From Polaromonas sp. (GTDB lineage: Bacteria > Pseudomonadota > Gammaproteobacteria > Burkholderiales > Burkholderiaceae_C), in NCBI GenBank assembly GCA_026786065.1, contig JAJAYS010000325.1, positions 1 to 16,018 on the forward strand: a DNA stretch of 16,018 bases, given 5' to 3'. The notes under the pieces were generated by a model. The model worked only from the letters and a program-made list of their open reading frames with translations, did not search any database and was not told the DNA's origin. Both the position numbers and the translations under genes were made by a program. Positions 1,439 through 5,053 of the stretch are shown in pieces. Each line of letters starts with the position of its first letter. Position 1 is the stretch's first letter.

Positions 1439-2500
1439 TCAGCCCAACAGGCCGACGGCGTGCATATAGGCCGGATGCAGCATCAGCGCGTCCCAAGGCA
1501 GGCCAGGCTGCGTCGGCAGCAGCGCCCGCCGGCGCATGTCACTGGACTCCAGCGCCTCCCAGCGGCCCTGGCGCTGCGCCTTGGCCATGCCGTCCAGCCA
1601 GGCATCGACCACCTTGCCGCCGCCGTCAAGCGACTGGTTGCACAGCAGCGCCAGGTCGCAGCCGGCGTTCAAGGCGGCCATCGCGGCATCAACATAGCTG
1701 ACCGCCTTGCCGTCGATCGTGCGGGCCGCCTGCATGCTAAGGTCGTCGCTGAAAATCGCGCCTCCAAAACCCAGCCGGCCGCGCAGGATGTAGGTCAGCC
1801 ATTGCTCCGAAAAGCCGGCTGGTCGCACGTCGACCTTGGGGTAGATCACATGCGCCGGCATCACGCCGGTCAGCGTGGCGTTTAGCCATTCATAGGGGGC
1901 GGCGTCGTCGGCCAGGATTTTTTTCAGTCTGCGCGAATCGACGGGTATGGCGGTATGGCTGTCGGCCTTGACGAAGCCATGACCGGGAAAGTGCTTGCCG
2001 CAGTTGGCCATGCCGCTTTGCAGCAGGCCGTGCATCAGGCTTTTGGCGAGCAGCGCCACGACGCGCGGATCGCGGGCGAAAGCGCGGTCGCCGATGACGC
2101 CGCTGTCGCCCCAATCGAGGTCGAGCACCGGCGTAAAGCTCAGATCGACACCGCAGGAGCGCAGCTCGGCACCCATCACATAGCCGCAGCCGGTAGCCGT
2201 GTTGGTCGCCCCCAGCGGGTCCTGCAACCACTGCTGGCCGAGCGCACGCATCGGCGGCAGATGCGTGAAGCCGTCGCTGCGAAAGCGTTGCACCCGCCCG
2301 CCTTCGTGATCGACGCAGATCAGCAGGTCGGCCCGCACCGCCTTGATCTCGGCACACAGCGCCGTCAGCTGCGCCCGGTTCTCCCAGTTGCGGGCGAACA
2401 AAATCAGGCCGCCAGTCAGCGGATGGGCCAGGCGGCGGCGGTCGTCGGCGTTCAGGCTCAGGCCGGCGACGTCGATGATCAGGGGGGCATGGGATTCCAT
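1439..2500 (-). CDS. nagZ: Beta-N-acetylhexosaminidase NagZ (GH3)
   Basis: Cytoplasmic glycoside hydrolase family 3 enzyme that removes N-acetylglucosamine from GlcNAc-1,6-anhydro-muropeptides during peptidoglycan recycling. The 353-residue length is usual for proteobacterial NagZ. Visible motifs are ICVDHEGGRVQRF (residues 61-73), the family loop GKHFPGHG at 168-175 followed by D180-S-H182 (the Asp/His general acid-base dyad of GH3 NagZ), and FSDDLSM, with D252 as the expected nucleophile. The start is the ATG at 2500, with a weak AAAGG about ten bases upstream. It is the last gene of the recO-pdxJ-acpS-nagZ run, but a repeat-rich 289-bp gap lies between it and acpS, so its expression may be partly uncoupled. 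There is no signal peptide, as expected. Confidence 0.95.
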   Translation of the reverse strand: MESHAPLIIDVAGLSLNADDRRRLAHPLTGGLILFARNWENRAQLTALCAEIKAVRADLLICVDHEGGRVQRFRSDGFTHLPPMRALGQQWLQDPLGATNTATGCGYVMGAELRSCGVDLSFTPVLDLDWGDSGVIGDRAFARDPRVVALLAKSLMHGLLQSGMANCGKHFPGHGFVKADSHTAIPVDSRRLKKILADDAAPYEWLNATLTGVMPAHVIYPKVDVRPAGFSEQWLTYILRGRLGFGGAIFSDDLSMQAARTIDGKAVSYVDAAMAALNAGCDLALLCNQSLDGGGKVVDAWLDGMAKAQRQGRWEALESSDMRRRALLPTQPGLPWDALMLHPAYMHAVGLLG

Positions 2501-2575
2501 CCGGTAAGGCCTTTCAGTCGCTATAATCTTTGTAGCTGCTAACGCCCGTATTTATTGGGCTTCAGCCTGTTTTTC

Positions 2576-2800
2576 TATAAATTTTAGTAACTACTCAGGT
2601 GTTCGCGCTTGCTATTTTTTTCCCTTTTCCTCTGGGAGAGGGTTAGGGTGAGGGCAGCCGGCTGTGGAGGAGTCACGGGAATCGCCATCGGGGAACCCTC
2701 ACCCCCTTCGACAGGGCTCAGGACAGGCCTGCCCTCTCCCAGAGGGCGAGGGAGCAAGAAAAAATGACTGTATCCGGCAACCTGAGTAGTTATAAATTTT
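2576..2800. mobile_element. MITE-like fold-back insertion between acpS and nagZ
   Basis: TATAAATTTT occurs at 2576-2585 and again at 2791-2800, consistent with a 10-bp target-site duplication. The 205 bp between them have inverted ends: ACTACTCAGGT (2590-2600) against ACCTGAGTAGT (2780-2790). Two more inverted pairs lie inside: a 14-bp perfect pair CCTCTGGGAGAGGG (2629-2642) / CCCTCTCCCAGAGG (2732-2745), and GGGTGAGGG (2646-2654) / CCCTCACCC (2697-2705). The two arms are therefore diverged inverted copies of one unit around a roughly 40-base centre. There is no coding capacity, so it would need a transposase supplied elsewhere. The right boundary overlaps the acpS stop codon. Four extra bases (2586-2589) separate the left duplication from the left inverted end, which is a blemish in the model. 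Confidence 0.6.
2706..2731. repeat. Second extragenic repeat nested in the right arm of the fold-back element
   Basis: In the left arm the segment GGGAGAGGG is separated from GGGTGAGGG by three bases (TTA, 2643-2645). In the right arm the corresponding blocks are separated by about 26 bases reading CCTTCGACAGGGCTCAGGAC and on to 2731. A related sequence, CCTTTTACAAGGCTCAGGAC, occurs independently between era and recO (5011-5030). This suggests one small repeat inserted into, or recombined with, another. Confidence 0.5.
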
Positions 2801-3191
2801 CGGGCTTTTCGACGATACAGAAGCTGGCGGCGTAATCGGTCTCGTCGGTGACCGTGACCAGCGCCCGCAGACCGCGCGCGTCGCACCAGTCCTTCAGCGC
2901 GCCATGCAACACGATTACCGGCTTGCCGCTGGCTTCGTTGGCGATCTCGCAGCGGTGCCAGGTCATCGGTAGCCGCAGCCCGAGGCCGATGGCCTTGCTG
3001 AAGGCTTCTTTGGCCGAAAACCGGGTCGCCAGGTATTTGATGCCGCGCTCCGGCCAGCGTGCGCTGCGGGCCTGCCAGATGCCGAATTCGCGCTCGCACA
3101 AAATCCGCTGTGCAAAACGGTCGCCGTGGCGCGCCAGGCTGGCGCGTATGCGGCGCACGTCGCAAATGTCGGTGCCGATGCCGTAGATCAT
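2790..3191 (-). CDS. acpS: Holo-[acyl-carrier-protein] synthase AcpS
   Basis: Transfers the 4'-phosphopantetheine arm of coenzyme A to a serine of apo-ACP, switching on fatty acid synthesis. At 133 residues it has the usual AcpS length. It starts [15 protein letters not shown], with D8 as the expected Mg ligand, and has the second signature [13 protein letters not shown] with E62 and K61; both are diagnostic. The ATG at 3191 is preceded by AAGGCGGG. It lies 96 bp downstream of pdxJ, the usual partner order. The stop codon TAA sits exactly at the edge of the MITE-like insertion: its last A comes from the inserted element. Joining the sequence across the proposed 10-bp duplication gives an ancestral GAA AAT TTA TAG end, so the protein C-terminus would be unchanged by the insertion. 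Confidence 0.93.
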
Positions 3192-5000: not shown

Positions 5001-5053
5001 GCCCTTCGCCCCTTTTACAAGGCTCAGGACAGGCAGGCTCGGGACGATCGGAT

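Follow-up and report, generated by a model that had tools for sequence, protein, structure and literature searches.

In a 16,018-nt stretch of DNA from Polaromonas sp. (hereafter the window), the gene acpS ends inside a short mobile element. We consider it highly probable that an IS66-type MITE was inserted in trans at a fixed spot past a dispersed hairpin repeat, here called A, that the insertion generated an 8-bp duplication and that it gave acpS a new stop codon. Judged from sequence comparison, the elements found at such places can be read as members of one clade of IS66 that strongly prefers a REP-like repeat. We observed the element ends, 8-bp duplications, a fixed spacing on one side of A, autonomous relatives at like sites and relatives free of the element. 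The two open reading frames concerned lie on the minus strand and are those which we take to be acpS (2790..3191; homologues in 55 of 61 relatives) and, downstream of it, nagZ (1439..2500; homologues found), the names being those given in an earlier sequence-only reading. The gene acpS is essential in many bacteria. Labels of the form L### denote loci examined and G### genomes examined; G000 is the window's own Polaromonas genome (2.93 Mb, 396 contigs, 84% complete), and a Polaromonas label is carried by many of the closest relatives of its nagZ.

The sequence-only reading had described a 205-bp fold-back segment with inverted ends, interpreted as a MITE insertion with a target-site duplication. 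The fold-back is indeed present: the inverted ends match exactly over 13 bp (TAACTACTCAGGT/ACCTGAGTAGTTA) and the region 2587-2793 folds strongly as DNA (z = -6.7 relative to 200 shuffles). Its borders, however, had to be corrected. We searched for copies across 87 genomes of the genus, and the full copies elsewhere in Polaromonas, mostly 179-184 bp long and located among L193-L206, end in GTAACTACTCAGGT...ACCTGAGTAGTTAC or close variants and are flanked by 8-bp duplications, which both supports the interpretation as a MITE insertion and sets the window element at 2587-2793 (207 bp, no strand assigned). Its left terminal inverted repeat, GTAACTACTCAGGT (2587..2600, plus strand), matches the family end exactly, and the last base of the right one (2780..2793, minus strand) is T where most copies have C; the end pair has one mismatch. 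A single open reading frame of at least 90 aa crosses the element, on the minus strand from 3219 to 2584 with its start beyond acpS, and acpS overlaps the element by 4 bases. Short (207 bp), present in multiple copies, bounded by inverted ends and a target duplication and devoid of coding capacity of its own, the element has the properties of a MITE. Elements with other interiors and ends of the same GTAACTACTCAGGT...ACCTGAGTAGTTAC type were found in G018 and G015.

The interior of the MITE seems to be built on an independent repeat. Sequences similar to its left inner arm, TCCCTTTTCCTCTGGGAGAGGG (2621..2642, plus strand; the right arm lies at 2732..2753, minus strand), were also found apart from these ends. 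The inner CCCTCTCCC/GGGAGAGGG arms recur in G000, and many of the 62 genome matches span only the arm part. A further dispersed repeat, CTTCGACAGGGCTCAGGACAGG (2706..2727, plus strand), is nested in the window copy; its core TTCGACAGG is missing from L193-L199, and a stretch resembling CTTCGACAGGGCTCAGGACAGG is found at 5009-5034 of the window. The copies at L193 (494-677), L199 (521-704) and L271 apparently represent one insertion common to G003, G090 and G069. In G069 (L240/L271), the inner arm is directly followed by the right flank, which looks like the result of a deletion between similar repeats.

On the basis of its ends, the length of its duplication and its autonomous relatives of about 1.5 kb, the window element, a MITE, is best assigned to the ISBst12 group of the IS66 family. 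The terminal inverted repeats of the element family start with GTAA or GTGA, its target duplication is 8 bp long (matching at 7/8 positions in the window itself), and a same-ended autonomous relative, L281, encodes an IS66 transposase (NCBIfam NF033517, 291 bits versus a cut-off of 180). Unlike the ISBst12 group, the window element carries no transposase. The IS66 transposase domain PF03050 was matched in 38 of the 87 genomes of the genus; no match was detected in G000, which is 84% complete. Copies of about 1.5 kb with a single transposase end in GTAACTACTCAG in L284 and in GTAACTACTAAC in L280 and L281. In the four autonomous elements examined (1,496-1,550 bp), a single transposase frame of 484-506 codons takes up most of the length, so that tnpA/tnpB would have little space. 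A separate set with GTGACTGTTCAG ends, which we call the GTGAC lineage (L272-L279 and L287, the last of 1,363 bp), presents perfect 8-bp duplications in 9/9 cases. In G408, which belongs to another genus, copies measure 1,637 bp; one of their ends is an exact GTAACTACTCAGGT, and their transposase shares 61% identity with its L281 counterpart. Within the ISBst12 group, ISDge4 is described in the accessible text of PMC12898284 as having ends GTGACTACTCAGCA/GTAACTGCTCAGCA and a direct repeat of 8 bp. It resembles the window family in its GTAAC/GTGAC ends with CTACTCAG and its 8-bp duplications, and its 449-aa transposase likewise corresponds to one long frame. ISDge4 was seen entering a protein gene, whereas the clade found at A appears to prefer a target.

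The copy of A in the window lies at 2516..2586 on the plus strand, with the model match at 2516-2572 and a tail extending to 2586, and the left duplication (2579-2586) falls within this tail, a target that the sequence-only reading had overlooked. The match scored 56 bits (E = 2.3e-16) with R1, a covariance model built without the tail from 26 copies of A, 7 of the 33 gathered copies being omitted. In the 25 of these 26 copies that could be checked, no element end was found at gaps 0-33 (at most 3 mismatches allowed), and chance-like ends occurred at gaps 34 and 35. With one mismatch allowed, the A pattern matched 359 times in G000 versus 12 times for a reversed control, and 174-523 times in eleven other Polaromonas genomes. 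A is palindromic and of high copy number, as a REP is. Its fold is a hairpin followed by a T-rich tail, the RNA fold z-scores of the two strands being -2.0 and -2.5; a terminator scan gave a weak excess (2 found versus 0.6 expected). The only match to a known RNA family at 2400-2900 was below threshold (15.4 versus 37 bits). We also considered BRE, a repeat found in Bordetella and Polaromonas (PMC3110155), as the identity of A. According to the accessible part of that source, Bordetella BREs average 69% GC and no genome has more than 29, the maximum being in Polaromonas JS666; A, with 44% GC at the window site and hundreds of matches, is set apart from BRE by description only. A agrees in part, at the sequence level, with a motif printed for P. 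naphthalenivorans, ATAGCT(N)22CAAAAG, reported as a potential novel motif with 125 copies, 101 of them intergenic (PMC5217627). This motif fits exactly in two of eight A-bearing loci tested (L281 and L116) and inexactly in the other six. The accessible part of PMC5217627 gives it neither a function nor a link to transposons, whereas A is here an insertion site. Other literature matches, PMC2755013 (accessible part) among them, contained nothing on A.

We then asked where same-ended elements lie relative to A. Using the exact end sequence as the only criterion, we selected 31 insertions: 21 from the genus set, which correspond to 23 places because two matched at both ends, and 10 extra ones from G275 and G408. 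In 20/31 of them (14/21 in the genus set and 6/10 among the extra ones), an element end follows an A hairpin on its 3' side at a distance of 13-15 nt. Not all of the 31 are independent: L240 and L241 represent a single shared insertion, G018 and G090 contribute five each, and another five are near-identical copies in G408. A 21st insertion at A, L198/L260 (gap of 14 nt), was found with a looser end match; its end is degenerate, which explains why the exact-end count missed it. Conversely, these loci contain 24 A hits (25 less one overlapping minus-strand hit of L242); 20 of them have an element end 13-15 nt away on the 3' side, and on the 5' side no element end occurs within 300 nt of any. No A hairpin was detected beside the remaining 10 of the 31 insertions (L240, L241, L247, L243, L246, L251, L301, L304, L305 and L310), which indicates that targeting is strong without being absolute. 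The only IS66 remnant with an exact MITE end found in Polaromonas, in G080 (L243/L261), is not at A. A second list of 37 insertions was chosen for lying at A and informs on spacing only: 17 are at 13 nt and 13 at 14 nt (30/37 together), and the others are at 9 nt (one), 12 nt (three), 15 nt (two) and 16 nt (one). Given the 359 A places in the 2.93 Mb of G000, about 5 in 10,000 random insertions would be expected at the four positions 12-15. In G408, L305 and L308 are very short same-ended elements (103 and 106 bp), the latter at A and the former not. L304 and L310, also in G408, both have the exact end GTAACTACTCAGGT, and the 1,514 bases that follow it, up to the end of the locus, are identical in the two; this sequence starts unlike the IS66 copies and possibly belongs to another element with borrowed ends.

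Autonomous copies occupy the same position as the MITEs. IS66 copies lie 13-15 nt past A at L280 and L281 in Polaromonas and at L292, L297, L300, L307 and L309 in G408 (L307 and L309 with a 494-codon frame each; L302, L303 and L306 among the 31 insertions are the elements of L292, L297 and L300). The same spacing from an A hairpin was found at L293, an IS66 copy with a partial transposase from a third genus (G329). In a midpoint-rooted tree, the six transposases from A sites split from those of L284, L294, L272, L279 and L299 with support of 98/98; L293 sits on a long branch in this tree, L292, L300 and L307 are almost or fully identical, and L297 and L309 were left out, as were L295, L298, L209, L223 and L261, which offered no usable protein. 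No A hit (E up to 1) was detected in the nine GTGAC-lineage loci, eight of which come from G036, a genome with 428 A pattern matches. Likewise, there was no A hit at L284, L294, L298 or L299, of which L294 and L298 have one end at a contig edge. L284, with GTAACTACTCAG ends, lies in G093, which also carries MITEs, and its duplication matches at only 2/8 positions. For the five autonomous copies at A whose two ends are known, the number of matching duplication positions out of 8 was 8 for L280, 6 for L297, 5 for L281 and 3 each for L292 and L300. The flanking 8-mers of L292 and L300, both in G408, are unpaired within each copy, and AATTCCCC lies next to A at L300 and L309, whereas at L292 it is found in reverse on the side away from A. 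An inversion between copies or gene conversion is a possible origin of this pattern.

These observations suggest the following history. In an ancestor of the window lineage, an IS66-type transposase acting in trans would have placed the MITE 14 nt past an A that already lay in the acpS-nagZ interval, with duplication of the 8 bp AAATTTT(A/C). The place would not be random, as members of one transposase clade and same-ended MITEs tend to insert 3' of A hairpins at a fixed distance. A transposase of this clade presumably attached to the ends of the MITE, made cuts staggered by 8 bp in the AT-rich tail and joined the element; we infer both its action in trans in the window lineage and the autonomous lineage from which it came. 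The near-constant spacing, combined with the variable sequence of the tail, suggests that it is the hairpin, or something bound to it, that is read, and recognition of A would be due to the transposase and not to a factor of the host. As a tentative extension, it is conceivable that this IS66 clade evolved to read the structure of the A hairpin (extruded DNA or a terminator-like fold) and not its sequence, measuring 13-15 nt from it, such that A would offer one transposon lineage, together with several unrelated same-ended MITEs, a built-in safe harbour in at least three genera.

Alternatively, the target might be chosen through a host protein or process acting at A, such as a nucleoid protein or transcription termination. 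The T-rich tail that follows the hairpin would fit such a process, as would tails that differ in sequence while the spacing barely changes. Yet the habit tracks one transposase group over three genera, and other ISBst12-type lineages of Polaromonas (the GTGAC lineage and L284) do not share it, which leaves host choice as the less probable of the possibilities, albeit one of some weight. Much less plausible is a scenario without any choice of target, in which elements insert at random and survive only past gene ends, where A also lies. It is true that A follows acpS in relatives, that 101 of the 125 reported copies of the matching motif are intergenic (PMC5217627, accessible part) and that 10/31 insertions lie away from A. 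Survival would not, however, produce a spacing of 13-15 nt in 20/20 cases on one side of the hairpin with 0/24 on the other, nor would it account for the GTGAC lineage, which has A hits in 0/9 loci despite 428 A matches in G036.

The length of the duplication was estimated from 34 elements for which both ends were found among the examined loci. Mean flank identity was 0.76 at a length of 8 and 0.39 or less at each of the other lengths from 4 to 12, and 8 was the best length both in this set and in the nine GTGAC-lineage elements. The flanks agree at a minimum of 6 of the 8 bases in 24/34 elements, versus 2.7% of mismatched left-right pairs, and at fewer in the other 10; flanking duplications, which the sequence-only reading had proposed to look for at other copies, are therefore present. 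This set includes L032 and L207, for which rival end pairs existed and the choice was made with the flanks in view, and three pairs that look like shared insertions (L193/L199, L194/L197 and L195/L202). L301, which lacks a clear pair, L305 and L308 are outside the set; the duplications of L305 and L308 match at 7/8 positions. In the window, the left duplication AAATTTTA (2579..2586), inside the tail of A, and the right duplication AAATTTTC (2794..2801), in the last coding bases of acpS, are identical at 7/8 positions (no strand applies to either). The sequence-only reading had instead proposed a 10-bp duplication, TATAAATTTT, around a 205-bp element that supplied only the final A of the stop codon, a version that we reject as scarcely credible: the ten bases are indeed identical at 2576-2585 and 2791-2800, but mean flank identity across the 34 elements is 0.28 at length 10 versus 0.76 at length 8, and the element's own ends reach GTAAC/GTTAC. 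The 10-bp identity appears accidental, because the left flank reads TAT and so does the right end of this element, which is mostly TAC elsewhere.

Relatives without the element were examined at 102 acpS loci with enough downstream sequence (the window and 101 others, some genomes being present twice). None of the 101 others carries an element end within 400 nt after acpS, as far as the sequence extends, and the stem motif of A is found shortly after acpS in 27/102 loci, none of them with the element. An 8-bp duplication predicts, in a close strain free of the element, a joined pre-insertion site ...TATAAATTTTC... beside A. Of the relatives in which the sequence-only reading had anticipated an empty site, L071 (Rhodoferax sp. 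Bin2_7) presents the exact joined site AAAATTTATA, the only such case among the 101. Another idea is that A and the fold-back form one composite mobile unit, with the left TATAAATTTT internal to it and no target duplication. A does stand beside an element-like end (0-5 mismatches) in 10 places of G000 (the window, L002, L004-L007, L010, L011, L027 and L032). Nevertheless, A is present in hundreds of copies, the elements located at A differ in their interiors, the motif follows acpS where no element does, and the 8-bp duplications enclose only the element, the one on the A side lying between the two. Duplications that exclude A refute a composite unit for the well-preserved copies, and we regard it as most improbable overall.

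The acpS gene ends in GAA AAT TTA TAA, as the sequence-only reading had stated, and its stop codon (TAA, 2790..2792, minus strand) is wholly inside the element. Contrary to that reading, the element contributes not only the final A but the entire stop codon and, at 2793, the last base of the Leu codon. Since the element ends in GTAAC, its outermost bases would have given acpS an in-frame TAA at once; the usual end would produce TTG TAA (Leu-stop), which implies that the stop came with the insertion. Whether the protein changed hangs on the one base at which the duplication copies differ, A at 2586 and C at 2801: the ancestral end would be PENL-stop with C and P-stop with A. In L071, GAA AAT TTA TAA runs into the hairpin repeat of that locus, and L061 is similar. 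Both carry the base that gives ENL, which favours an ancestral PENL end. The earlier proposal of an unchanged protein is thus favoured by these relatives, insofar as that single base can decide it.

REPINs/RAYT are short, non-coding and multi-copy with inverted ends. Other bacterial MITEs are likewise short, non-coding, multi-copy and bounded by inverted ends (PMC10969869, accessible part), and the window family differs from them in its IS66-type ends and clear 8-bp duplications. The accessible part of the same review cites the JS666 genome paper for Polaromonas MITEs. We found no report of IS66 MITEs or of IS66 target specificity in a literature of which most subscription papers were out of reach, such that an earlier report is possible. 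Insertion sequences that target REPs include IS1397, IS621, ISPpu9, ISPpu10, ISPsy8 and ISRm22 (Tobes and Pareja 2006, PMC1525189). Like the elements at A, they use a palindromic high-copy repeat as their insertion site; unlike those listed in the accessible text, the elements described here insert beside the hairpin, in its AT-rich tail, and include MITEs. That text counts five families (IS3, IS110, IS4, IS256 and IS5), IS66 not among them.

If confirmed, our results would add IS66 to the five transposase families listed, in the accessible text of PMC1525189, as targeting REP-like repeats. A would gain a role as a landing site, the matching repeat being listed only as a potential motif in the accessible part of PMC5217627. 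The window also illustrates how an element with a stop codon in its ends (GTAAC) can insert into the final codons of a gene such as acpS and leave its protein almost or fully unchanged. Finally, the A-targeting clade and the other ISBst12-type lineages would, if the preference is confirmed, constitute a natural contrast for finding what determines the target of a transposase.
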